Source: Phycisphaerales bacterium (GTDB taxonomy: Bacteria; Planctomycetota; Phycisphaerae; Phycisphaerales; UBA1924). Taken from it: DNA of 43,185 nucleotides. Below, in pieces: positions 12,688 to 32,056 of the stretch. Every line of letters begins with the position of its first letter. Positions within the stretch are counted from its first letter, which is position 1. Location of the stretch: positions 1 through 43,185 of the forward strand of contig JAEUJD010000192.1 of the NCBI GenBank assembly GCA_016793015.1, read 5' to 3'. The position numbers were made by a program, and so were the translations under genes. The notes under the pieces were generated by a model. That model did no database searches, was not told where the DNA came from, and saw only the letters and a program-made list of their open reading frames with translations.

Positions 12688-12809
12688 GCCCGACTCTATG
12701 ACGCCTGCTGGAAGCCGGGTTTGTTACCCCGGTGTGCGTCGGAATTGTCGCCCCCAATCAACTGTCGCAAAAACGCAACAGCCCCTTGAGTGGCGCTCCG
12801 GGCCATCCG

Positions 12810-13748
12810 ATGTTGCGTTTCATGAACACGCCCGGCAAGATTCCCCCCTTTCACGATCAACCCAATGGAGGGGGAAACCCCACGGACGATCGGCACTCGG
12901 GCGATCCCTCCCATGGCACGGGCATCCCGAGAAGCGTCACGCGGCCCGACAGCGCCTCCAATCAAGTGGATCGTCTTTCGGTCCTCGTTCACGAGCTCGA
13001 CAATTTGCTCGACGGCTCGCTCCGCTGTGTCAGCCTCGCGGCACGCACTCTCGACGGCTCAATCGGAACGGTCGGGCTAATCGAGATCGAATCGGTCCGC
13101 AAGCAACTTGAAACAGCGTCAAAGGCCCTTGAACGCATGGCGGGCATGGTGCATGCCGCGATGCAGGGGCGGGCCATCCCCATCGGCACGGTGCTGGACG
13201 GCAACACGCCCGCGATCACGCTCGCCGAAGCGATCGAGCACGCGGCAGACGTGATGAGGCATGCCGCGACCACGCACCAAACCACAATCGAACTGCACAT
13301 CGACGAGGCTGTCGGCATGAATCCTTCCGGCCCGATTTATCCGGCGATCCTGAACGCGCTCAAGAACGCGCTCGAATCGATCGAGGCGGCGGGCGGCCGG
13401 GGGACGGTTTCGGTGCATTGCCGAGCCGAGTGCGGACCAAAGTCTCGAACCAAGGCCGCGACGCAGTGGGCGTGCATCGAGATTCTTGATGATGGCGCGG
13501 GCATGCCCCGGGGCGTCACTTCATCGCGATTGTTTGATGCGGGATTCTCGACCAAGTCAGAAGGGCGAGGGATCGGGCTTGCGCTCAGCCGCAGTTTGCT
13601 CGAACGCATGGGCGGACACGCGGAGATCTCACCTCGCGACGATCGGTCGGATCAGCGTCGTCCGGGCGCGGCGCTCACGCTGCGGTTCCCCGTGACGGTC
13701 TCGGACCGGGAAACGGCGCGCGAGAACAACAATCGCAAGCGGGCGTAG
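12810..13748 (+). CDS. Soluble NtrB-like histidine kinase
   Basis: Cytoplasmic sensor kinase of about 312 residues without transmembrane segments. The phosphoacceptor is His61 in LVHELDNLLDGSL (HExxN form). The HATPase domain shows the N box (ALKNALESIE, about 183-192), G1 (DDGAGMP), F box (FDAGFSTK) and G2 (GRGIGLALS). No PAS, GAF or other sensor domain is recognisable; the first 50 residues are Pro/Gly-rich and probably disordered. The input is therefore unknown. The response regulator starts 11 bp after its stop. The start may be 12810 or the ATG at 12822. Confidence 0.8.
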   Translation: MLRFMNTPGKIPPFHDQPNGGGNPTDDRHSGDPSHGTGIPRSVTRPDSASNQVDRLSVLVHELDNLLDGSLRCVSLAARTLDGSIGTVGLIEIESVRKQLETASKALERMAGMVHAAMQGRAIPIGTVLDGNTPAITLAEAIEHAADVMRHAATTHQTTIELHIDEAVGMNPSGPIYPAILNALKNALESIEAAGGRGTVSVHCRAECGPKSRTKAATQWACIEILDDGAGMPRGVTSSRLFDAGFSTKSEGRGIGLALSRSLLERMGGHAEISPRDDRSDQRRPGAALTLRFPVTVSDRETARENNNRKRA

Positions 13749-13759
13749 ATGCGGCTCAA

Positions 13760-15262
13760 ATGAACACACCCATGACAAACCCCCCGCCATCTCCGCTCCT
13801 CAATTCGGCCCCTGCCGTGACCGCCACAGCGGAGCCGGCAGCAGAGAAGCCCCGCATTCTGATCGTGGACGATGATTCGATCGTTGCGGAATCGCTCGCG
13901 GATTTTCTGGCCCGAGACGGCTTTGAGCCCGCGACGTGCCTCTCGGCCCAAGAAGCGCTCGTCACGCTCGAGAAGAGTGAAGAGGGAGACTCACGGCCGT
14001 TCTCGCTTGCATTGCTCGATGTCTCGCTCCCAGGCATGGGCGGGATGGATCTCTTGCGCGAGATCGTCAAGAAGCGATTCAGCGCCGTTTGCATCATGCT
14101 GACGGGATATGGCACGATCGAATCGGCGGTTGAGGCGCTGCGCATCGGCGCGAGCGATTACCTGATCAAGCCCGTGGTGGATTCGGAACTCCGCATCAGC
14201 ATCCAGCGGGCGCTGCGTCAGCGGGCGCTGCTGCAGGAAAACCGCACGCTCCGCAAGCAGCTCGATCGCAGACACGGCCTGGAAACGATCGTCGGTGCGG
14301 ATCACCGGATGCGGAAGATCTACGAACTGATCGAGGCCGTTGCACCGAGTCGCACCACCGTGCTGATGACCGGCGAATCGGGAACGGGTAAGAGCCTGAT
14401 TGCCCACGCGATTCACAAGGCAAGCCCGCGCTCCGCACGAGCCTTTGTCGAACTCTCCTGCGGCAGCATCCCCGAAACGCTGCTCGAAAGCGAACTGTTC
14501 GGCCATGTGAAAGGCGCTTTTACAGGCGCCCACGCCGACAAGATCGGTCGGTTCCAGGCGGCGGACGGCGGCACGCTCTTCCTCGACGAAATCAACAGCG
14601 CGAGCCCGGGCATGCAGCTCAAACTCTTGCGCGTGCTCCAGGAACGCAAGTTCGAACCCGTCGGCTCGACGAAGACGATCGAGGTCGACGCCCGCGTCAT
14701 TCTCGCAAGCAACCAGCCGCTCGAGCAGCTTGTTTCGGACGGCCGGTTCCGCCAGGATCTGTACTACCGAATCAACGTCGTCAAGATCGAGTTGCCCCCG
14801 CTCCGCGATCGCGTGAGCGACATCCCTCAGCTGGCCGAGCACTTTCTGCGGAAGCACGCGGCGGAACTGGGGAAGCAAGTTGTCGGCTTTTCACCCGAAG
14901 CGATCGCGGCGATCCAGCGGTATTCTTTCCCGGGCAACGTGCGGGAACTTGCGAACGTGGTCGAGCGGGCGGCCGTTCTGTGTCGCCGCGCCACGATCGC
15001 GCTCGATGATTTGCCATCCAACGTCACCGGGCAAGAAGCAGCCAAGCCTCTCGCTATGGCAGGCGCGGCGGATGAGCCGTGGACACCGATGACGCTGGAA
15101 GAAGCGCTCAAAGAACCGGAGCGCCAGATTCTGCAGCGCGCGCTCAAAGCCAACAACTGGAATCGCCAGAAGACAGCGGAGCAACTTGGCGTCAACCGGA
15201 CAACACTCTACAAGCGACTCAAAATGCTCGGCTTACAGCCCGAGGACGAGCGGGCGGCGTAG
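13760..15262 (+). CDS. NtrC-family sigma-54-dependent response regulator
   Basis: Transcription activator of 500 residues with the full three-domain layout. The receiver spans about 31-150, with acidic pocket DDD (37-39), phosphoacceptor Asp87 and conserved Lys137. The AAA+ domain has Walker A GESGTGKS (205-212), the sigma-54 contact loop GAFTGA (252-257) and Walker B GGTLFLDE. The C-terminal Fis-type helix-turn-helix is NWNRQKTAEQLGVNRTTLYKRL. It should activate RpoN-dependent promoters when phosphorylated by the kinase encoded 11 bp upstream. About 30 Ala/Pro-rich residues precede the receiver. Target genes cannot be read from this window. Confidence 0.9.
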   Translation: MNTPMTNPPPSPLLNSAPAVTATAEPAAEKPRILIVDDDSIVAESLADFLARDGFEPATCLSAQEALVTLEKSEEGDSRPFSLALLDVSLPGMGGMDLLREIVKKRFSAVCIMLTGYGTIESAVEALRIGASDYLIKPVVDSELRISIQRALRQRALLQENRTLRKQLDRRHGLETIVGADHRMRKIYELIEAVAPSRTTVLMTGESGTGKSLIAHAIHKASPRSARAFVELSCGSIPETLLESELFGHVKGAFTGAHADKIGRFQAADGGTLFLDEINSASPGMQLKLLRVLQERKFEPVGSTKTIEVDARVILASNQPLEQLVSDGRFRQDLYYRINVVKIELPPLRDRVSDIPQLAEHFLRKHAAELGKQVVGFSPEAIAAIQRYSFPGNVRELANVVERAAVLCRRATIALDDLPSNVTGQEAAKPLAMAGAADEPWTPMTLEEALKEPERQILQRALKANNWNRQKTAEQLGVNRTTLYKRLKMLGLQPEDERAA

Positions 15263-23440: not shown

Positions 23441-23514
23441 TGAGCGATACTGGGCTCGAACCAGTGACCTCATCCGTGTCATGGATGCGCGCTAGCCAAC
23501 TGCGCCAATCGCCC
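23441..23514 (-). tRNA. tRNA-Val (anticodon GAC)
   Basis: A 74-nt tRNA with acceptor GGGCGAT/ATCGCTC (one G-U pair) and discriminator A. The anticodon stem CATCC/GGATG has loop ATGACAC, giving GAC. The T-arm is ACTGGTTCGAGCCCAGT. CCA is not encoded. Confidence 0.93.
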
Positions 23515-23589: not shown

Positions 23590-24348
23590 TCACGATCGAA
23601 CCGCCGCCCGAACTCTCCGGCCACCTGGGCCGCGCATCGCGAAAACCGCCCCCATGGCGAGCAGCGCAAGGCTACCCGGTGCCGGGGTATCAGCTTGGAA
23701 CTGTGGCTCACTCAAGTCGGTTCCGTATTGAAACCAGACGTCCGAGAGATTCGCGAGGTCGAAGTCGCCCGGAAGGCCTGAGAGGGTGAACACCGCAGAA
23801 TTTTTGATGAACGCGTTGCCGAGTATGCCGCCATTTCCGGTCAGCGGATTGTCTCCAGCAGTGACCAGGCCATACTGCACACCGTCGGGACTCGGCGGCC
23901 CCTGAAGATTCAGGCCGGGGAAGGTGTCACCCGCTCCAAACAGCCCAAGGCCGGATGAACTGATGCCATAACCGGTGCCGTGCGGGCCGGAAACCGTGTT
24001 GTACGACCACTCTCCGCCTATACCGTCGGGGGGCGGATTCGTGGGAGTGCCGGGGAGAGTTCCAGAAAGAGACGAACCGGCGGCGACGACCGCACTCACT
24101 CGCCCAAGCGTGAGCGCCGCACCGGCGCGATTAAAAAACACGCCCGTGAGAACGTCGGTCGGAACCAGCACATCGGCCGTTCCGGTGTTCGTGAGCGTCA
24201 CAATGAGATTCGAACCGGAAACCGCGAATGTGGCCGATGCGCCGAGTCCGCCCGACGTGAACGAGAATGTGACGTCGGCAAACGCAGCGCCTCCGCACAA
24301 GAGACTTGCCGCGACTGAGAATGAAGTCATTTTTCGGCAGCAAAGCAT
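23590..24348 (-). CDS. Secreted protein with PEP-CTERM-like sorting tail (1)
   Basis: A 252-residue exported protein. The ATG at 24348 is chosen because AAGGGG lies seven bases upstream, as in the related gene starting at 27358. The signal peptide is MTSFSVAASLLCGGAAFA. The body is Gly/Ser/Thr-rich and beta-like: after ADVTFSFTSGGLGASATFAVSG come stretches such as NLIVTLTNTGTADVLVP, resembling single-domain surface proteins. The C-terminus TPAPGSLALLAMGAVFAMRGPGGRR has a Pro motif, a hydrophobic stretch and an Arg-rich end, which is the three-part sorting signal recognised by exosortase-like enzymes. No exosortase gene lies in the window. A copy of the cluster repeat lies in its upstream region, and two copies carry a sigma-54-like motif. 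Confidence 0.75.
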   Translation of the reverse strand: MLCCRKMTSFSVAASLLCGGAAFADVTFSFTSGGLGASATFAVSGSNLIVTLTNTGTADVLVPTDVLTGVFFNRAGAALTLGRVSAVVAAGSSLSGTLPGTPTNPPPDGIGGEWSYNTVSGPHGTGYGISSSGLGLFGAGDTFPGLNLQGPPSPDGVQYGLVTAGDNPLTGNGGILGNAFIKNSAVFTLSGLPGDFDLANLSDVWFQYGTDLSEPQFQADTPAPGSLALLAMGAVFAMRGPGGRRVRAAVRS

Positions 24349-24435
24349 GGTGAATCCCCTTTTGAAATACCCCGGAACGCTCGAAAGCGGGCCAACGCCC
24401 GTCCCCAAGCACAGTTCACGCCCCGTGAACACTTC

Positions 24436-24451
24436 TGCAAACCCCGCGCCG
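24436..24451 (-). promoter_or_regulatory. Possible sigma-54 (-24/-12) motif upstream of PEP-CTERM-like gene 1
   Basis: On the minus strand CGGCGC-N5-TTGCA matches the TGGCAC-N5-TTGCW consensus at 9 of 11 positions, with the essential GG-N10-GC spacing. It would start transcription about 77 nt before the ATG at 24348. It lies inside repeat copy 1, so it may be a by-product of the repeat. Confidence 0.35.
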
Positions 24452-24561
24452 AAACTTTCGCTCCGGCCGGAGCTCCTCTCGCTCGTGATCCTGCAAGCGA
24501 GGAGAATCGCTCACCCCAAAGGCAATGAGCAAGAGGATGTCTGTCCAGAACCACCGACGGA
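24436..24561 (-). repeat. Cluster repeat, copy 1
   Basis: One of three copies of a roughly 125-bp element found only between the PEP-CTERM-like genes. On the minus strand it can form a stem CTCCTCGCT/AGCGAGAGGAG with a two-base bulge. Next is a fully paired hairpin GCCGGAGC-GAAA-GTTTCGGC with a GNRA tetraloop, and the element ends in GCGGGGTTTGCA. It begins just after the stop codon of the 24565 gene. Confidence 0.75.
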
Positions 24562-24564
24562 GAA

Positions 24565-25359
24565 TCAGTTGCGACGCCTGCGACCGGCAACCAGTCCGCC
24601 CACGCCGAGCAACGCGAGCGCACCGGGAGCGGGGATCGGCTCGAAATTGAACGTGGTGTCATCGCCGTCGAAGCCGATCTTGAACATGTCGGCCGCACCA
24701 TCGAACGAGCCGGTCCAGCCGGAACCGATCCCGATTTCGTAGCCGAGTACGACGGCGTTGGGGCCCACAACGTTCGAGGTCACGCCCCCGCCGTCCACCA
24801 CCGTGTCGCCCGAAAGCCAGTCGCTCAGCGAGCGGTTGTAGATCTCAACGGTCTGTCCCCCGCCGATCGTCTTGAATGCGCGCTGCCAGAAATTGCCGCC
24901 CATGAGGTTGTGCGTATTCCACTGATTCGGCGTCACGGTGTTCACGCCGTTGTACACCGGTTCCCAAATCAGATAGGAATACCGGTCCGTCGCCTGGCCG
25001 TTGTCAACAAGCAGCCGAACGGCGGGTGCCAGGTGTCCGGCGGCCGAGCTGCTCGAATTGCGGTAGAGATCGATGCTGAGCGACGTCATCGTGCTCAAGA
25101 GGTTCAAGCCGATGTTGGCACGCACGAAGTCGGCCTTGTAACTGGGAGAATCGCTGCTCCCGCTGAATTGCAGGCTTCCGGTGCCGTTGTTCGCGTAGGT
25201 GTTCGTGATGGAAGCTGAGCCATCGCCGCGCAGATTCTGGGCCGACCAGCCAAGTGGATTGGAAGGAGTCACCACAACGGTGGCGCCGGAAGCAGCGATG
25301 CCGCCGCCGATGGAGAGAACAACAAAGCCGAGCGAGAAGGAATTCGAACGCATGGACAT
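24565..25359 (-). CDS. Secreted protein with PEP-CTERM-like sorting tail (2)
   Basis: A 264-residue exported protein. The N-terminus MSMRSNSFSLGFVVLSIGGG...ASGA is a signal peptide. The body, which includes SLQFSGSSDSPSYKADFVR, NSSSSAAGHLAPAVRLLVDN and DRYSYLIWEPVYNG, reads as a beta-sandwich of the kind seen in PEP-CTERM proteins with a carbohydrate-binding-like fold. The C-terminus IPAPGALALLGVGGLVAGRRRRN is a textbook planctomycete PEP-CTERM-like tail. The ATG at 25359 is preferred over the ATG at 25353; AAGGGC lies upstream. Function unknown, presumably a surface or matrix component. Confidence 0.8.
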   Translation of the reverse strand: MSMRSNSFSLGFVVLSIGGGIAASGATVVVTPSNPLGWSAQNLRGDGSASITNTYANNGTGSLQFSGSSDSPSYKADFVRANIGLNLLSTMTSLSIDLYRNSSSSAAGHLAPAVRLLVDNGQATDRYSYLIWEPVYNGVNTVTPNQWNTHNLMGGNFWQRAFKTIGGGQTVEIYNRSLSDWLSGDTVVDGGGVTSNVVGPNAVVLGYEIGIGSGWTGSFDGAADMFKIGFDGDDTTFNFEPIPAPGALALLGVGGLVAGRRRRN

Positions 25360-25430: not shown

Positions 25431-25618
25431 CGAGAGGAATCCCGCACCACGCGGTCATGCGTGGAAGTAGCCTGTTGCGGGTTTATGAATCCGGCAAACC
25501 CCGCGCCGATGCTTTCGCGCCGGCCGGAGCTCCTCTCGCTCGTGATCTTGCAAGCGAGGAGAATCGCTCACCCCAGAGGCAATGAGCAAGAGGAAGACTG
25601 TCTAGAACCACCGACGGA
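25431..25618 (-). repeat. Cluster repeat, copy 2 (longest)
   Basis: On the minus strand it has the same order as copy 1: stem CTCCTCGCT/AGCGAGAGGAG, tetraloop hairpin GCCGGCGC-GAAA-GCATCGGC (one mismatch), then GCGGGGTTTGCC. It adds a third hairpin CCACGC-N6-GCGTGG, shared with copy 3. The last 17 or so residues of the gene ending at 25568 are encoded inside this repeat. Confidence 0.75.
25493..25508 (-). promoter_or_regulatory. Possible sigma-54 (-24/-12) motif upstream of PEP-CTERM-like gene 2
   Basis: The minus strand reads CGGCGC-N5-TTGCC with GG-N10-GC spacing, matching 8 of 11 consensus positions. It lies within repeat copy 2, about 130 bp before the ATG at 25359. Confidence 0.3.
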
Positions 25619-26074
25619 AGTTCCGCTGCGACTCCGTCGTCGCCTCGCTGCGGCGCACCCTGCCACGACAAGAACTGCGAGAGTCGAAGTCGAAGGAACC
25701 TGGTCGCCGCCCGGATCGAGCGGAAACGGGCGATCGGTGTGCGCAGGTGTCCCCGCTGCGGTCAGTCCGAATCCGCTGATGCGATTTCCGAAAGCCGGGT
25801 CATTGAATCGAGGGCCGATCATCGCATCGCCCGGCAATGAGATGAACCGCACCGGTGGAACCCCGATGGCGAGCGCCCGCGGGCCCGCAAACTCCGGCCC
25901 ACTCCAAAGCCCCGCGATGCGTTCGGAATCGGCGAACCCGACTTCGGCCGCGGCACTCGAACCTGCCTCGGTCCTGGAGCCGGGATTCTCCAAAACAGGA
26001 CTGGAAGCAAAGTTGTGCACACCTCCCGATGCCGAACCCGCCAGCCCGACCATCCATACCAATGTTGGAATCAT
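25568..26074 (-). CDS. Secreted protein with degenerate PEP-CTERM-like tail (3)
   Basis: A 168-residue exported protein from the ATG at 26074, where AAGGA directly adjoins the start. The signal peptide is MIPTLVWMVGLAGSASGG. The body (residues 20-130) has no recognisable domain; it reads GVHNFASSPVLENPGS, then IAGLWSGPEFAGPRALAIG. The tail VPSTSTLAVLVVAGCAAARRRR has the hydrophobic and Arg-rich parts of a sorting signal but lacks the usual Pro-x-Pro. Another 20 or so Ser/Gly-rich residues follow the arginines because the frame runs into repeat copy 2. This suggests the repeat changed the 3' end of the gene. Confidence 0.55.
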   Translation of the reverse strand: MIPTLVWMVGLAGSASGGVHNFASSPVLENPGSRTEAGSSAAAEVGFADSERIAGLWSGPEFAGPRALAIGVPPVRFISLPGDAMIGPRFNDPAFGNRISGFGLTAAGTPAHTDRPFPLDPGGDQVPSTSTLAVLVVAGCAAARRRRSRSGTSVGGSRQSSSCSLPLG

Positions 26075-26482
26075 TCCTTGAATCACGATGCACCCGCACT
26101 TTCGCTTTGCCGCCCCTGCGTCGATCCACCACACCCGCACAAACCGATCAGTCGAGCAACCATTCCCCAAGCACGTGCCAGCAGTGACGCGCCCCGGGAA
26201 ACGCAGCAAACGAATCAACAACGACAGCGACGACGGAACGAGCGATGAACATGGTCCGGCCTCCTGCGTGTCGGCTGTGATCTCGAGTTCGCACCCCGCC
26301 GACGGTTGTGCGCCCGACCCGCTTCTCCGGGACGACTTTCAGAAACCCCGGACGGCGCTTTCGAGCCGTCCGGAGCGTGGTTCGCTGCTCAAGATGGAGC
26401 AAACGAAGGTCGTGGCAGCGGGTGTGACTCCATCCAGACTGAACAAGCACCCGGAGGCGAAGATCGCACGCATGGACCCGAG

Positions 26483-26606
26483 CAGAATCCCGCGCCGAGC
26501 GGTTATGCGCGGAGCGAGCGACAAGCGAGCGGGAACTCGGGCAAACCCGGGCCGAGGCTTTCGCATCGGCCGGAGCTCTCCTCGCTCGTCGATTGGTGAG
26601 CGAGGG
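26483..26606 (-). repeat. Cluster repeat, copy 3
   Basis: Most diverged copy. On the minus strand it has a perfect 8-bp stem CCTCGCTC/GAGCGAGG, the tetraloop hairpin GGCCGATGC-GAAA-GCCTCGGCC (one mismatch at the same place as in copy 2), CGGGTTTGCC, and the third hairpin as CCGAGC-N6-GCGCGG. The surrounding gap, 26075-26659, contains no convincing gene. Confidence 0.65.
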
Positions 26607-26659
26607 AATCGGAACACTCAATGCCGCTTGTGCGGTTGAGCGAGGAGATGAATCAGGAT

Positions 26660-27358
26660 TCAGCGACGGCGGCGAGCAAGGACCAATCCGCCCAGGCCGC
26701 AGAGCGCGAGGCTGCCGGGGGTAGGAACGAGCTGATCCTGAGGACCGCCTTGCACGTCGCCGGTCAGGGCATAGACGCCGCCGTAGGACGGCAGCAAGCC
26801 CAAGTTGCCGAGCCAGGTGTTCGCCGTCGAACGAGCGCTGGCCGCATCAGCGTTGCCAAGGGTCACGACGAAGTTGCCTGTGTTCACGTCGAGCGTGCCG
26901 CTGTTCTCGAAGACGATCTCCCAGACCGCGAGCTGGAACGCGCCAAAGTCGACGTTCCCGGACAACCCGCCCCGATAGGCGCCCCAGAGTTTGCCAAGCA
27001 TCGCCGCCTTGGTCGCGCCCATCGGATAGTTCACGCCGTTGCCTGAGGGCGTGGGCGCCTGATCCAGGGAAGTCTGGCTGAAGCCGTAGTTGCCGCCATT
27101 CGAGACGTGTTTCTTGAGATCGATGCAGAAGGTCACGTACGTGCTGGCAAGGTACGGATCGGTCGCCGTGCCGCCCGTGCGGGTCCAGTTGAAACCGCCC
27201 GCATCCGATCCCTGATTGATGCCGTTGTCGGTATCAACGATGTGAACGGCGACGCCGGGTGTCACACCCGTGAACGTTGCATTCACGTAAGCGGCAGAAG
27301 CGCCGCTGGCCAAACCGGCGAGAACGATCGAGGACAGAGCAATGCGAGAGAGAGACAT
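26660..27358 (-). CDS. Secreted PEP-CTERM-like protein (4) with possible thioester-domain motifs
   Basis: A 232-residue exported protein. The ATG at 27358 has AAGGGG six bases upstream, and the signal peptide is MSLSRIALSSIVLAGLASGASA. The body contains YVTFCIDLKKHV and, about 90 residues on, FGAFQLAVWEIVFE. This Cys and Gln pair in [YFL]C-hydrophobic-D and hydrophobic-Q-x-A-hydrophobic-W contexts resembles Cys-Gln thioester domains of bacterial adhesins. The C-terminus VPTPGSLALCGLGGLVLARRRR is a PEP-CTERM-like sorting tail. The leader region holds a 60-bp tandem array. Probably an adhesin or matrix protein; the thioester reading is inference. Confidence 0.75.
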   Translation of the reverse strand: MSLSRIALSSIVLAGLASGASAAYVNATFTGVTPGVAVHIVDTDNGINQGSDAGGFNWTRTGGTATDPYLASTYVTFCIDLKKHVSNGGNYGFSQTSLDQAPTPSGNGVNYPMGATKAAMLGKLWGAYRGGLSGNVDFGAFQLAVWEIVFENSGTLDVNTGNFVVTLGNADAASARSTANTWLGNLGLLPSYGGVYALTGDVQGGPQDQLVPTPGSLALCGLGGLVLARRRR

Positions 27359-27457
27359 ACGAATCCCCTTACCAAGCGGCAATCACGAACGCACACAATC
27401 CCGCGCTGCCGCCGACGGAAATGCGTGGGGCTACTTACTTTGAAGCCCGCATGAGGA

Positions 27458-27760
27458 ATCCTGCCGGGCGCGTTTCCGCTGCCCGACGAGGGAGGAGAGA
27501 GAGTCTGGCTTTTTCAATCCCGTCGATGCACCGCCGTGCACCGACGAGCGGAGAAGAGAGAGTCCTTGGCTTTTCAATCCCGCCGAGCGCGTTTCCACTG
27601 CCCGACGAGCGGAGGAGAGAGAGTCTGGCTTTTTCAATCCCGCCGATGCACCGCCGTGCACCGACGAGCGGAGAAGAGAGAGTCCTTGGCTTTCCAATCC
27701 CGCCGGGCGCGTTTCCACTGCCCGACGAGCGGAGGAGAGAGAGTCTGGCTTTTCAATCCC
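27458..27760. repeat. Five tandem 60-bp units in alternating A-B-A-B-A order
   Basis: Units repeat exactly every 60 bp: the CAATCC landmarks fall at 27515, 27575, 27635, 27695 and 27754. Two unit types alternate, one containing GCGCGTTTCCACTGCCC and one containing ATGCACCGCCGTGCACC. Both share GACGAGCGGAG(A/G)AGAGAGAGTC and CTTTTCAATCCCGCCG, so the higher-order period is 120 bp. Because 60 is a multiple of three, frames stay open on both strands. It lies 100-400 bp upstream of the gene starting at 27358. Confidence 0.9.
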
Positions 27761-27826
27761 GCGGGTCGCGTTGCCGCGACCAGGCGAGCAGGTGGACACC
27801 ATCAAGAACCCGGCACGATCGCAATC

Positions 27827-28054
27827 TCAGACCGCGTTCCGCAGCGTGCTTGTGACCCCCACACGCCCAGATGCGAACCGGCTTCGCGCCGGCTCGGCGC
27901 GATCTGACGAGAGTGGTGCAACCAATCCGCGCCGTGCGCGCGATTCAATCACCCGCGTCACCTGGGCCCGCATGTTCGCGTTGGAGCGGACGGCGAGCCA
28001 GAGGAGCTGTTCGCCGCTGAACTCGTTGAGCATGGACATCGTGTCGGAACGCAT
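27827..28054 (-). CDS. Small protein of unknown function
   Basis: A 75-residue ORF from the ATG at 28054, with GAGGAG eight bases upstream (a strong ribosome binding site). It reads MRSDTMSMLNEFSGEQLLWL, then LAVRSNANMRAQVTRVIESRAR, an amphipathic helical half, followed by a polar basic tail. No family is recognised. It lies 56 bp after the 28111 gene on the same strand, so it is probably the second gene of the operon behind the sigma-54 promoter at 28740. Confidence 0.55.
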   Translation of the reverse strand: MRSDTMSMLNEFSGEQLLWLAVRSNANMRAQVTRVIESRARRGLVAPLSSDRAEPARSRFASGRVGVTSTLRNAV

Positions 28055-28110
28055 GATGAAACTCCTCAAGAAGATGAACTCGTGACAAGTCGCGGCAGCC
28101 GCCGCGACGT

Positions 28111-28728
28111 CTAGGCGGAGACGGATCGCAAACGAAAAGGCGGGATCTCGATACCAATCGGACGGATCTGCTCGGGCTTCGGCTCGCAGGTTTTCGAGGC
28201 TGTTCGGTCCTCGACGCGGACGCACGCTTCAAACGCGAGCGTGTCGGGCGATTCGGCATTTCTCGCCTCGGTATGGAATCTCATGGAAGCGGATTCACCC
28301 GCGCCGTGCAGTGCGGGACCCTGATGTCCTGGGGGCAACTCCCGCGCGATCAGCGCTGTCAGAGCCGACCGGACTTCCGGGCAATCGCGGAGCATCAGAA
28401 CGCCCCGGCGGAGCACGGCCTCGTTCGGCTCGACCGAGGAATCGTGCAGCACGACGATCCGGCGGAGCGAGGCGAGGGAAGATGCGATGTTCAGCAGCGG
28501 GACCAGCGAAGGCGCGATCCCCGCATTCATCACCGTAAGGATGCACGAGGACTTTGATCGAACGATGCTGCGAACCGAGTCGATCGCAGCGTCCGTCCCC
28601 CGCATCACCAGCACAACCGCATCGCCTCCCAGAATCTCGCGGAGGTTCTTTTCTTCGGTTGGCTGTCCCGGCGCTTCGATCAGCAGGCCGGCCCAGGTGC
28701 GATTCGTGTTTGACTCACGGACGTTCAT
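28111..28728 (-). CDS. Unknown protein, first gene behind a sigma-54 promoter
   Basis: A 205-residue cytoplasmic protein from the ATG at 28728. The N-terminal 130 residues alternate hydrophobic strands and helices (TWAGLLIEA, GDAVVLVMRG, SSCILTVMNAG, LRRIVVLHDSS, GVLMLRDCP). That is a Rossmann- or receiver-like pattern, but no phosphoacceptor or nucleotide motif is clear. The C-terminal 70 residues are polar. I do not recognise the family. A consensus sigma-54 promoter ends 12 bp before the ATG, so the transcript would be nearly leaderless or the real start may lie further in. Confidence 0.6.
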   Translation of the reverse strand: MNVRESNTNRTWAGLLIEAPGQPTEEKNLREILGGDAVVLVMRGTDAAIDSVRSIVRSKSSCILTVMNAGIAPSLVPLLNIASSLASLRRIVVLHDSSVEPNEAVLRRGVLMLRDCPEVRSALTALIARELPPGHQGPALHGAGESASMRFHTEARNAESPDTLAFEACVRVEDRTASKTCEPKPEQIRPIGIEIPPFRLRSVSA

Positions 28729-28739
28729 ACCGATGCATT

Positions 28740-28755
28740 TGCAACACCGGTGCCA
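28740..28755 (-). promoter_or_regulatory. Sigma-54 promoter (perfect -24/-12 consensus)
   Basis: The minus strand reads TGGCAC-CGGTG-TTGCA, an exact match to TGGCAC-N5-TTGCW with GG-N10-GC spacing. Predicted transcription start is about 28729, at the edge of the ATG at 28728. A sigma-54 activator gene and a set of palindromes lie directly upstream. Confidence 0.8.
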
Positions 28756-28817
28756 AACGCGCGCACGAATCGAATCGCCTTGGATTCGCTGCCATGGCGT
28801 GCCCAGCGTGCGCGGGT

Positions 28818-28868
28818 GTGACGACTTGTCACGGATGTCGCGCGACACCTGTGACACCACTGTCACAG
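28818..28868. promoter_or_regulatory. Three adjacent palindromes, candidate activator-binding sites
   Basis: GTGAC-N5-GTCAC (28818-28832), TGTCGCGCGACA (28836-28847) and CTGTGAC-N6-GTCACAG (28849-28868) lie side by side with centres about 17 bp apart. Their half-sites (GTGAC, or GCGAC in the middle one) are related. They sit 65-125 bp upstream of the sigma-54 promoter, the usual place for upstream activating sequences of NtrC-family proteins. Confidence 0.7.
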
Positions 28869-28885
28869 GCACCAACGCTCACGCA

Positions 28886-28932
28886 CAAAAATAAAACGAT
28901 CGCCGGCGCGTGCTTGATGCTCGCGCCGGCGA
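28886..28932 (-). terminator. Rho-independent terminator of the sigma-54 activator gene
   Basis: An 11-bp stem TCGCCGGCGCG/CGCGCCGGCGA (28900-28932) is followed on the minus strand by TCGTTTTATTTTTG. It lies 30 bp after the stop at 28962, so the activator gene and the operon downstream are separate transcripts. Confidence 0.85.
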
Positions 28933-28961
28933 CCTCCAGAGAAGGCGTGTTGACAGACCGG

Positions 28962-29918
28962 CTACGACACTTGCTGGGCGTGCTCGTGCAGCTCAAGGCG
29001 ATCCATCATGCGATAGAGCTGGCGCCGATCGATCCCCAGCCGCCGTGCCGCGGCAGACCGGTTGCCCCCCGATACCGAAAGGGCGAATTTCACGGCTTCG
29101 GCCGTCGAGCGCTCCAGCAGCGAACGCTCGCCCCGCGACGTGTCGGCGCCATCCAGCCCCAGGTGCTCGGGCTCGATGAAATCGCCCGGGCAAAGCACTG
29201 CGGCCCGCTCGATGCAGGTTGCCAACTGACGCACGTTGCCCGGCCAGGGGCAGAGCAGCATCGCGTCGAGCGCCCGCGACGAGAACTTGCGTTGCACGCC
29301 CAGTGTTGATGCAAAGTCCTCGAGCAGGGAATTGGCGATCAGGGGAATATCCTCCGCACACTCGCGTAGCGCGGGCGTCGTGATTCGGATGACATCGAGC
29401 CGGTAGAGCAAGTCGAGACGAAAACGGCCCTCACGCGTCATCGCCTGCAGATTGCGGTGCGTCGCCGCGACCACGCGAATGTTCACGGGTATCGGCTTGG
29501 TGCTCCCCACCGGCGTGACGGTGCGCTCCTGAAGCAGGCGCAGCATCTTGGCCTGTTCGGGAGGGGGCAATTCCCCCAGTTCGTCCAGAAACACCGTGCC
29601 CCCGTCCGCCGCCCGGATCAGCCCCTGCGTGCTGGCAATGGCCCCCGAGAATGCGCCCTTCTCGTGGCCAAAGAGCAGAGATTCAAACAGCGTTTCGGTG
29701 AGCACGGTGCAATCGACCGTGACAAACGGCCCGGCGGCACGCGGGCTGAACTCGTGGATCGCACGGGCGACCAGTTCTTTGCCTGTCCCGCTCTCACCGT
29801 GGATGAGCACCGTGGACGGAAATGCCGCGGCGGTCTGCACCGTCTCGCGAATGCGAGCAAGTGCCGCCGAACGGCCAACCAACCGGCGAAATGCCGGTGC
29901 CTCGAATTGATTGGACAT
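28962..29918 (-). CDS. Receiver-less sigma-54-dependent transcriptional activator
   Basis: A bacterial enhancer-binding protein of 318 residues with only the AAA+ and DNA-binding domains. Walker A is GESGTGKE (41-48), the sigma-54 contact loop is GAFSGA (88-93, Ser replacing the usual Thr), Walker B is GGTVFLDE (106-113), and the arginine-finger region and PWPGNVRQL are present. The C-terminal Fis-type helix-turn-helix is GGNRSAAARRLGIDRRQLYRMM. The ATG at 29918 is chosen because AGAAGGGG lies nine bases upstream. With no receiver or sensory domain it may be controlled by expression level or by a partner protein, as PspF is. Promoter, palindromes and operon next to it suggest local targets. 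Confidence 0.9.
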   Translation of the reverse strand: MSNQFEAPAFRRLVGRSAALARIRETVQTAAAFPSTVLIHGESGTGKELVARAIHEFSPRAAGPFVTVDCTVLTETLFESLLFGHEKGAFSGAIASTQGLIRAADGGTVFLDELGELPPPEQAKMLRLLQERTVTPVGSTKPIPVNIRVVAATHRNLQAMTREGRFRLDLLYRLDVIRITTPALRECAEDIPLIANSLLEDFASTLGVQRKFSSRALDAMLLCPWPGNVRQLATCIERAAVLCPGDFIEPEHLGLDGADTSRGERSLLERSTAEAVKFALSVSGGNRSAAARRLGIDRRQLYRMMDRLELHEHAQQVS

Positions 29919-30018
29919 CTCCCACAACCCCTTCTGTACCAGTCGCTGCGTCGCGCGCGGCCCAACACCCGCGCAACGAGCACTGAAAAACCCCACAAAG
30001 AATCTACCGCAAAACAAC

Positions 30019-30110
30019 GGACGCGTGGTGCGCCGCGTGACGATTATTTGGAATTTTTGTTCGTTTTATTGCACATCACCGTTTTTGCAATTCGATCGGC
30101 GAAAATAGGG
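30019..30110 (-). promoter_or_regulatory. AT-rich upstream region of the sigma-54 activator gene
   Basis: The stretch 30040-30110 is markedly AT-rich for this genome and contains ATTGCAAAAAC and GTGCAATAAAAC on the minus strand. It very likely holds the promoter of the 29918 gene, though I cannot assign one specific -35/-10 pair. Positions 30111-30262 show nothing further. Confidence 0.45.
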
Positions 30111-30262
30111 TGACCGCCCCATGTGCGCATCAACTCAGGTTCAATTCGGCCCCGGATCGCGGACGGCAGCATGTCCGCGGGATCAATGCGGTTTCGACGA
30201 TGCAATTTGTTGTGAATACCCAAATTAGACCAAGGGGTTCAAAACGTCGAAGAGGCTGCGGC

Positions 30263-31162
30263 TCAGCTCTGAGGCGTTGCAATCACCACGCGCCGCTTCA
30301 TATCCGAAACCCATGTGCCGCCGGGCCGCTCGATGGTCACGGCGAAGAGCGCCGGCGTGCCGACATGGATGCGGGGTGAAATCTCGACGATCAACTCATC
30401 GCCGATCCGTTGGGCACGGACTTCGCCCTGCCAGCCGGTGGTTTGGCCGGAAGAATTGAAGATGCCGCCGCTCACACGCTGCTCAAGGCCGCGCTCATCC
30501 ACGATCCATAACTGATACTGCTCTTTCGATGCGTCGTTCAAGGGCAGGCCCCGGAAGGTCATGTACCCCTTCTGGCCGTCTTCACTCCACACAACATCAC
30601 CCTTCACGCCCGCGATCTCGGGCTTGTCCCAATCGCCCCAGACAAGTCGCTTCGCATCTGGCGCCTTGGCGATGGCATCCCGCAGGGACACAATCGAGGC
30701 CTGCGCCGGGCTGGAATTCTGACGGTTGGCAAAGATCTGGATCCACCCGATCGCGGCAAACGCCAGGCACGCTGCCGCCGCCATCCACCCGAGCCATGCG
30801 CTGCTGATACGACGGGGGCGCGGAACGCCCGAGTCTGACTCGACGATCCGGAGCGCCGGGGTGCCCATCACGTTGCGGCTGTTCTCCATCTCGCGTGCGA
30901 ACACCTCTGCCGCCTGAGCGGCGCGGGTGTAGACCGACGCGGGCGCACGCTCGGCCGGATCGGCGAGCGCGAGCATCGCGGCCCCAGCGGCAAGATCGAA
31001 CGAATCATCTACCTCGATCCCCGCCCGCTCCAGAAGCGATGCGAGCTTCGCGCGGTCGGCATCTTCGAGGCCGAAAAGGGCCTGATCGGCGAGCAGATCA
31101 TTCAGGAGATGAAGATCCTCGGGCGGCAGCGGCGGCAAGTTGGACCGGGAGTGTGAATTCAA
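30263..31162 (-). CDS. RskA-like anti-sigma factor
   Basis: A 299-residue membrane-anchored regulator. The N-terminal cytoplasmic part (about 1-120) should bind the sigma factor, a single transmembrane helix follows (AWLGWMAAAACLAFAAIGWI, about 122-145), and the extracytoplasmic RskA domain includes RLVWGDWDKPEIAGVKGDVVW, GLPLNDASKEQYQLWIVDE and the closing FAVTIERPGG. The start TTG (31160-31162) overlaps the sigma-factor stop as TTGA, so the two are translationally coupled. It should hold the ECF factor inactive until an envelope signal triggers its proteolysis. Confidence 0.85.
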   Translation of the reverse strand: MNSHSRSNLPPLPPEDLHLLNDLLADQALFGLEDADRAKLASLLERAGIEVDDSFDLAAGAAMLALADPAERAPASVYTRAAQAAEVFAREMENSRNVMGTPALRIVESDSGVPRPRRISSAWLGWMAAAACLAFAAIGWIQIFANRQNSSPAQASIVSLRDAIAKAPDAKRLVWGDWDKPEIAGVKGDVVWSEDGQKGYMTFRGLPLNDASKEQYQLWIVDERGLEQRVSGGIFNSSGQTTGWQGEVRAQRIGDELIVEISPRIHVGTPALFAVTIERPGGTWVSDMKRRVVIATPQS

Positions 31163-31737
31163 GATTTCACCCCCTGTTCACCGGACTTTGTGGCGCTGAG
31201 CATCTCGCGGATTCGCATGAGGCCGCGTCGGGCGTGGGTCTTGACGGTGCCCAGAGGCAGGCCGGTCGCCGTGGCGATCTTCTCGTGGGAAAGCCCTTGA
31301 AGGAGGGAGAGGCGGAGCACGCGTTGCTGTTCGGAACTGAGATCTTCGATGGCGCGAGCCGCGATCCTGGCCTCTTCTCCGAGTTCGGGGCGAGCGGTGT
31401 CGGTGCGAATCGGCGTCGACTCATCGAGCGGGGCGCGGTCGCGTTGGCGTGACATCCGCCGACGCCGATCGATCAGCCGGCGCCGCGCGATCATGGCGAT
31501 GAATGCGGTTTCCGACGCGATGTTTGGATCAAAACGAAACGCGTTCCGCCAGATCTCAACGAAGATCTCCTGTACGGCGTCCTCGGCATCGGCCCCGTTC
31601 AGCGCCATGCGTCGAGTCAGCGACCAGACAAGCCCGGCGTAGCGATCGATGCACGCTTGCACAGCAGCTTTGTCGCCCGAGGCGATGCGTTGGAGAATCG
31701 GTTGATCCAAAAGACTGACGCACTCCCGAATCGTCAC
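31159..31737 (-). CDS. ECF RNA polymerase sigma factor (SigK-like)
   Basis: A group 4 sigma factor of about 192 residues. Region 2 contains DAVQEIFVEIWRNAFRFDP and FIAMIARRRLIDRRRR. Region 4 contains LSSEQQRVLRLSLLQGLSHEKIATATGLPLGTVKTHARRGLMRIREML. The GTG at 31737 starts just before region 2; the ATG at 31809, with GGAG upstream, would add an Arg/Pro-rich stretch that looks untranslated. It is coupled to the anti-sigma gene. Likely targets are the operon itself and the fasciclin gene upstream. Confidence 0.88.
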   Translation of the reverse strand: MTIRECVSLLDQPILQRIASGDKAAVQACIDRYAGLVWSLTRRMALNGADAEDAVQEIFVEIWRNAFRFDPNIASETAFIAMIARRRLIDRRRRMSRQRDRAPLDESTPIRTDTARPELGEEARIAARAIEDLSSEQQRVLRLSLLQGLSHEKIATATGLPLGTVKTHARRGLMRIREMLSATKSGEQGVKS

Positions 31738-31986
31738 CCCGGCGTGCCTTGCAGGGCCGGCGCGGCGACAGGGACGATCATACCGGATCGGGCGGTCGCG
31801 GCTCGTCATTTTGCTCCACGACCATCCTGGCCCCACCACTCGGAAGCCGCTCTGTCGGGGCGGGATGAGACTTGCACGGGCGGACATGGGATCCTCGCAC
31901 AAAGAACGGGCATGTTGGCATGTATTCGCCGGAAATGGCTCCGCGGATGTGCCGGGCTCGAGGCCGGAAAACCAAGCATGCTCGCC

Positions 31987-32022
31987 GAAAAGCAGCGTTC
32001 GCCCTCGCGGGCGAAACGCTGC
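31987..32022 (-). terminator. Rho-independent terminator of the fasciclin gene
   Basis: A long stem GCAGCGTTTCGCCC pairing with GGGCGAACGCTGC (31992-32022, one bulge) is followed on the minus strand by TTTT. It lies 35 bp after the fasciclin stop. The rest of 31738-31986 shows no gene and should hold the sigma-factor promoter. Confidence 0.75.
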
Positions 32023-32056
32023 GACCTGGGTCAATCCCGCTTTCGCGGCATGGCGG

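Follow-up and report, generated by a model that had tools for sequence, protein, structure and literature searches.

On the minus strand of a planctomycete genome, a receiver-less sigma-54 activator, the palindromic enhancer beside it, a sigma-54 promoter and the gene pair X205-P75 very probably constitute a dedicated sigma-54 control unit with a single target. The unit lies in a window, meaning the whole 43,185-nt stretch of DNA that was analysed, from contig JAEUJD010000192.1 of a Phycisphaerales bacterium (genome G000, a 3.86-Mb assembly in 228 contigs). It was compared across genomes of one family, largely metagenome-assembled, and the genome-wide scans were pattern-based. All parts of the unit belong to known kinds. 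From the activator gene downward, the features are as follows.

28962..29918, minus strand: receiver-less sigma-54 activator (bEBP), 318 aa, with AAA+, AAA lid and Fis-type HTH
28886..28934, minus strand: intrinsic terminator after the activator gene, with a 13-bp GC stem, a long loop and a U-rich tail
28818..28868, minus strand: putative enhancer (UAS), three dyads of TGTCRC half-sites, judged by conserved register and half-site statistics
28740..28755, minus strand: -24/-12 promoter TGGCAC-CGGTG-TTGCA, its conserved bases identical in 10 intact loci
28728..28730, minus strand: predicted transcription start, at the usual sigma-54 spacing, 12 nt after the -12 C
28111..28728, minus strand: X205, target gene 1, 205 aa, residues 12-130 predicted to be (beta-alpha)5 and receiver-like
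27827..28054, minus strand: P75, target gene 2, 75 aa, with Shine-Dalgarno GAGGAG and conserved core LLWxAxxSNxxMR
27457..27762, minus strand: tandem hairpin array, units of ~60 nt, separating P75 from the first PEP-CTERM gene
26660..27382, minus strand: first PEP-CTERM-type gene downstream, 240 aa, a candidate operon member that PEP-CTERM models match weakly

The initial annotation had taken the gene at 28962-29918 for a receiver-less sigma-54 activator, and a domain search agrees, finding a Sigma54_activat domain (E 1.5e-63) and a Fis HTH (HTH_8, E 1.9e-9) with no receiver and nothing N-terminal to the AAA+ domain. The Walker motifs and GAFTGA-type loop of a bEBP are present. The loop reads GAFSGA here, GAFSGA or GSFSGA in close orthologs and GAFTGA in a more distant clade, and the departure of the close orthologs from GAFTGA is a point that would count against a dedicated sigma-54 unit. 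The genome contains one rpoN match (Sigma54_DBD, E 6.9e-60). The closest solved structures to the activator are ZraR (E 1.8e-75), NifA and FleQ; it shares with NtrC, ZraR and FleQ an AAA+ domain followed by a Fis HTH, but lacks their N-terminal domain, the receiver-like protein here being encoded separately as the putative target. Two narrower identities were tried and rejected: as PrsR the protein scores 304.7 bits against a TIGR02915 cut-off of 502.6, with a match that starts at profile position 133 and no receiver, and as PspF it scores 219.9 bits against the curated TIGR02974 cut-off of 443.55.

Orthologs of the activator are 87 (G007), 79 (G005), 73 (G004), 70 (G002), 68 (G188) and 66 per cent (G337) identical to it, and the activators of the more distant G250 and G078 about 45 per cent. 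Ten activator sequences form one group in the tree (support 89/61) with two strong clades inside it (100/99 each), and this group nests in a receiver-less clade (100/100). The activator of G243, a further candidate ortholog, is a paralog in the tree, with motif, promoter and X all absent nearby; within 1.5 kb downstream of other receiver-less activators of the order (G100, G057, G045 and others) there is neither a half-site cluster nor an X-type layout with a consensus promoter. Alignment revealed nothing clearly conserved upstream of the activator gene. At its other end stands the terminator that had been attributed to it, a 13-bp GC hairpin followed by GUUUUAUUUUU (z -2.3), which a simple terminator scan missed because the loop exceeds 8 nt. 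The terminator separates the activator gene from the enhancer, and hairpins occupy the same position in G007, G005 and G004.

The promoter TGGCACCGGTGTTGCA at 28755-28740 has, as first read, zero mismatches to the sigma-54 consensus, with GG at -24, GC at -12 and the TGGCAC-N5-TTGC pattern. Allowing one mismatch, 3.2 such -24/-12 matches are expected by chance in the window, so a lone match is unremarkable in a window of this size and not significant by itself; its significance comes instead from conservation. G007, G005 and G004 of the same genus have the promoter in the matching position, as do G337 and G188 of other genera and the more distant G250, G078, G157 and G029, and it is intact in all ten intact loci found (seven genera). 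Alignment of the interval between the activator stop codon and X205 leaves two conserved islands, the dyads and TTGGCAC-N5-TTGCAAT. We predict that transcription from 28740-28755 is sigma-54 dependent.

The three dyads read, down the minus strand, TGTGACA-GTGG-TGTCACA, TGTCGC-GCGACA and GTGAC-AAGTC-GTCAC, with the central one centred about -112 from the predicted start. Palindromes beside the promoter had been noticed by eye, and counting gives them statistical weight: the enhancer of G000 contains five half-sites against 0.69 expected, a number reached in 0 of 300 dinucleotide shuffles. None of 300 shuffles reached the observed count in G004, G337, G078 and G029 either, one did in G157 and three in G250, and by the exact-half-site count the excess is weaker in G007 (12/300) and G005 (22/300). 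The register between enhancer and promoter is held within 1 bp in five genomes (G000, G007, G005, G004 and G337). A pattern search of 163 genomes of the family, with at most three mismatches, places the enhancer core TGTCACNNNTGTCGCGCGACANNNGTGAC at one site each in six (G000, G002, G004, G005, G007 and G337), in every case beside the orthologous activator and never in a genome without it; the reversed-pattern control is almost empty. The initial annotation had named conservation of the palindromes in related genomes as a check, and the core is conserved in these six. A chance assembly of dyads and promoter in a GC-rich genome might be entertained on the ground that one -24/-12 match is not rare in a window this size, yet its probability is negligible in view of conservation in 10 loci of seven genera, uniqueness across the 163 genomes and the near-empty reversed-pattern controls.

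Two relatives are informative about the pairing of activator and enhancer. At the G002 locus (L039, G002:C1) the activator is frameshifted inside the HTH and the enhancer is intact; promoter, X205 and P75 are absent from this relict, and a tRNA-like sequence lies nearby. The unit appears to be decaying jointly there, although the frameshift could be a sequencing error. In G188, activator, promoter and X205 are all present but the enhancer motif is not (zero half-sites in the count, no convincing dyad set in a de novo search), and the recognition helix of the Fis HTH reads IGRAQLYR as opposed to IDRRQLYR in the activator of G000. The uniqueness of the core, its co-occurrence with the activator, the decay in G002 and the helix change in G188 make the activator-enhancer pairing well supported, and argue that in the genome the activator would bind its adjacent enhancer and hardly anything else of the kind. 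The outer dyads carry TGTGA and TCACA arms, and one might therefore suppose that they are bound by another regulator of the CRP/FNR type (TGTGA...TCACA) next to a true sigma-54 promoter, with the activator acting elsewhere. This is very unlikely, as the arms are spaced 7-8 bp apart against 6 bp for CRP, the most conserved dyad is TGTCGC-GCGACA, a global regulator would not be expected to have a single-copy site confined to genomes with the activator, and loss of the motif in G188 coincides with the change of recognition helix.

Within the genus the unit belongs to a syntenic block (ompA-fasciclin-ECF sigma-anti-sigma-activator-X205-P75), in a comparison where G004 ends at contig edges and G002 is without X205 and P75. 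The ECF sigma factor and RskA-type anti-sigma factor genes upstream of the activator (30263-32034 of the window, minus strand) are syntenic in G002, G004, G005 and G007. Orthologs of X205 are found in G007, G005 and G004 of the same genus, and X205 is also present in G188 and G337. The distant clade was reached by two routes, G250 and G078 through a TTGGCAC-N5-TTGCA survey of the 163 genomes combined with reading of the downstream sequence, and G157 and G029 through an activator profile search. Its activators are receiver-less with the recognition helix I/VSRRHLYR, and its gene order runs from activator through TGTGACA/TGTCGC half-sites and TGGCAC-N5-TTGCA to an X-like ORF of 139-153 aa, usually a P75-like ORF, and PEP-CTERM genes. 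The P75-like ORF comes next in three of the four (G250, G078 and G157), with no obvious P75 in G029. Activator, enhancer, promoter, X and usually P75 thus show, across the genomes compared, the pattern of a unit inherited and lost together at the head of PEP-CTERM clusters. Conserved order, together with core uniqueness, the G002 decay and the G188 helix, supports the self-contained control unit of the initial annotation, and the membership of the 205- and 75-residue genes is supported by conservation of their order and sequence in relatives.

A sigma-54 transcript normally has its first nucleotide about 12 nt beyond the C in the -12 GC. By this spacing +1 is the T at 28729, the nearest purine downstream is the A that opens the X205 start codon (28728), and the promoter would leave no room for a leader, a point that the initial annotation missed. 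The predicted start falls 1-6 nt before the start codon in all ten loci, with the X start codon at +2 in G000, G007, G005, G250 and G337 (GTG in G337), +3 in G004, +4 in G029, +5 in G078, +6 in G188 (or alternatively +3, with a GTG there) and +7 in G157. Since +1 is a pyrimidine in nine of the ten, the first purine is often the start codon's own. No conserved Shine-Dalgarno precedes the X start codon in the ten loci, nor any plausible one in the six close loci, where only a GAGG occurs in the promoter spacer of two, upstream of the predicted transcription start; an in-frame alternative start before the conserved Trp-12 is likewise missing in G000, G005, G004 and G188. P75, in contrast, has its own Shine-Dalgarno, and two other consensus sigma-54 promoters of G000, serving an Hsp20-type gene (C137) and a glutamate-dehydrogenase-type gene (C142), have normal leaders with Shine-Dalgarno sequences. 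With the start codon at +2 to +7 and no conserved Shine-Dalgarno a leaderless mRNA is to be expected, and, taking the predicted start as a guide, we consider it likely that the X205 message is leaderless or nearly so.

In G000 and several relatives the X205 frame stays open even upstream of the promoter, which would suit translation from a longer mRNA, made from another promoter or by read-through from the activator gene, with the sigma-54 element as a minor or alternative start. However, a stop closes the frame 20 codons before the start codon in G005 and 18 codons before it in G004, activator and enhancer are separated by a strong terminator, no sigma-70-type site was found in 26500-30400, and the six close loci show no plausible Shine-Dalgarno ahead of the X start, all of which make the longer mRNA unlikely.

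The unit resembles the leaderless mRNAs of mycobacteria, Deinococcus-Thermus, Sinorhizobium and Bradyrhizobium in having a promoter placed for a start at the start codon, but the cases described there have -10-type promoters (PMC12340547; PMC4842269). Leaderless mRNAs and sigma-54 promoters have been reported within the same transcriptomes, and the literature searched contains neither a conserved sigma-54 leaderless case nor a statement that a sigma-54 promoter makes leaderless mRNA. A survey that included a single planctomycete genome placed Planctomycetes among the phyla with likely leaderless and/or S1-dependent initiation (PMC5397173). If the predicted start is true, this would be a conserved sigma-54 promoter making leaderless mRNA, and would tie a stringent, activator-dependent promoter to Shine-Dalgarno-free translation.

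Other apparent cases were inspected as well. HsdR-type genes (G212/G276) more likely use a downstream start with a Shine-Dalgarno, and apparent starts 10-12 nt after TTGCA in G307, G332, G226, G022, G137 and G297 have no long ORF or have a better start downstream. A gene that we take from its sequence to be DUF2130-type has, in three genera (L074/L192 at G001:C6:830, L179 in G228 and L180 in G212), a consensus sigma-54 promoter whose TTGCA precedes the start codon by 12 nt, and is a candidate second leaderless sigma-54 transcript.

The product of the first target gene had been called unrecognised, and as regards family membership it remains so: searches of X205 against Pfam, NCBIfam and PDB profiles gave no significant match, Response_reg (PF00072) is matched by none of six X orthologs, and hhalign against receivers gives a probability of 6.6%, no significant sequence link. 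Structure prediction departs from that description. AlphaFold models of six X orthologs, with pLDDT mostly 80-95 over residues 12-130 and a disordered tail beyond residue 130, have the (beta-alpha)5 CheY fold, and the order E-H-E-H-E-H-E-H-E-H is predicted in both X clades. The best Foldseek match of X205 is TadZ (4lda, E 5.7e-5, 18% identity); Spo0F is matched with Z 10.1 and 10.6, NarL and KdpE are also at or near the top, and cobalamin-binding and other Rossmann-like folds score close behind the receivers. No invariant phospho-acceptor Asp follows strand 3: the alignment position there is N, N, G, D, D and D in the six close orthologs. Receiver identity by sequence homology is thus rejected, with the fold alone in agreement, and X205 is predicted to be a stand-alone pseudo-receiver by fold only. 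Atypical receivers of the TadZ/CpaE kind share the CheY-like fold and carry a further ATPase domain, whereas X consists of one domain plus a disordered tail and is likened to them by fold. Profile comparison shows no homology between the two X clades either (hhalign probability 0.3%), and they are equated by position, size and predicted fold.

These parts suggest a mechanism. The activator would bind the adjacent dyads some 95-140 bp upstream of the start site and drive E-sigma54 transcription from 28740-28755; the transcript would begin at or within about 6 nt of the X205 start codon, leaderless in practice, and continue into P75, which would be translated from its own ribosome-binding site. 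X205 could then act in trans on the receiver-less activator or its partner, as the missing regulatory domain, and so feed back on the unit at the head of a PEP-CTERM surface-protein cluster. There is reason to see a candidate regulator in X, because a sigma-54 promoter is silent without its activator and a domain-less activator needs a partner. For this step feedback in trans is rated the most likely reading, but it is a tentative one; the unit would probably be self-limiting.

A precedent is offered by PspF, which has no N-terminal domain and is held in check in trans by PspA, a product of its target operon (PMC6003685). As in Enterobacteria, a receiver-less sigma-54 activator here sits beside its own putative target operon, and the feedback is proposed by analogy only. 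Unlike PspA, a coiled coil, the target product is a predicted pseudo-receiver, and the target gene lies downstream on the same strand with an apparently leaderless transcript.

As the main alternative, X205 may spare the activator and belong, with P75 and the hairpin arrays, to a downstream layer (antitermination, for example) that controls the PEP-CTERM genes. Several genera do have hairpin arrays in the interval from P75 to the first PEP-CTERM gene, and the fold matches of the distant X clade include Rv1626 and EutV, the receivers of RNA-binding ANTAR proteins; on the other hand, no ANTAR domain was found in X or P75 and the array hairpins have no clear U-tracts, and we regard such a layer as less likely. 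A more elaborate form, in which X205 and the small helical P75 would be a split ANTAR-like regulator acting at the RNA level on the hairpin arrays from a leaderless sigma-54 cassette, is a quite improbable one. Were it true, the cassette would couple enhancer-controlled transcription, Shine-Dalgarno-free translation and hairpin-array control.

The hairpin units have a strong stem, CTCGYYGG...CCGGCGGGATT / AGCGGGTTT, and linkers CTCTCTCT. Similar units occur at L190 (5115-5260), L191, L203, L006 and L007, and their stems vary between units yet remain complementary in several genera. The same hairpin search found almost none at the loci of PEP-CTERM paralogs elsewhere in the genus, and in Rfam the arrays are unmatched, the one above-threshold hit across the locus being a tRNA at 23441-23514. 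Other strongly structured, GC-rich intergenic stretches on the minus strand (about 24400-24580, 25440-25700 and 26222-26660) precede the window's other PEP-CTERM genes and are partly repeats of one another.

The first PEP-CTERM-type gene has orthologs in the same place in G007 and G005. Further on, 24565-25458 matches PEP-CTERM models below threshold (TIGR02595, 15.3 against 16 bits; MYXO-CTERM, 18.8 against 20), and 23590-24432 (minus strand) encodes a surface protein of the exosortase-dependent XDD4 family (217.6 bits; cut-off 40). PEP-CTERM-type ORFs with VPAPG-hydrophobic-RRRR tails follow the unit within 0.5-4 kb in all nine loci with downstream DNA. The PEP-CTERM link had been an inference from a single sequence; synteny in nine of nine loci now supports it, and we infer that the unit controls PEP-CTERM genes. 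These genes may share its transcript, although hairpin arrays lie in between.

Most of what is known about the regulation of PEP-CTERM surface proteins comes from Proteobacteria, where PrsK-PrsR also joins sigma-54 and an enhancer-binding protein at PEP-CTERM loci (PMC1569441; PMC9850573). In that system the sigma-54 motif belongs to the PEP-CTERM genes themselves, on average 71 nt ahead of their start codons, and the paper defining it stated that motifs and regulators beyond this system were yet to be discovered (PMC1569441). PrsR, however, has a receiver and a kinase partner, whereas the present activator has no receiver, its enhancer motif is single-copy and its first target is a predicted pseudo-receiver gene that would be virtually leaderless. 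The combination of single-copy enhancer, predicted leaderless sigma-54 transcript, separate putative pseudo-receiver and planctomycete PEP-CTERM cluster was not found in the literature searched. The unit is a candidate PEP-CTERM regulator for planctomycetes with a testable predicted binding site. It also offers a compact pair of one activator and one site, and a second pair of activator and separate receiver-like protein, and such pairs would be useful in studies of what controls enhancer-binding proteins that lack a regulatory domain.

At 12732-15262 (plus strand) the window encodes a histidine kinase and a receiver-bearing NtrC-family response regulator, a second sigma-54 system whose regulator has AtoC, NtrC and PrsR as best NCBIfam matches, none over its cut-off. 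At L034/L075 (G000:C142:4493-5605) another sigma-54 activator gene lies ahead of the consensus sigma-54 promoter of a glutamate-dehydrogenase-type gene with a normal Shine-Dalgarno leader.
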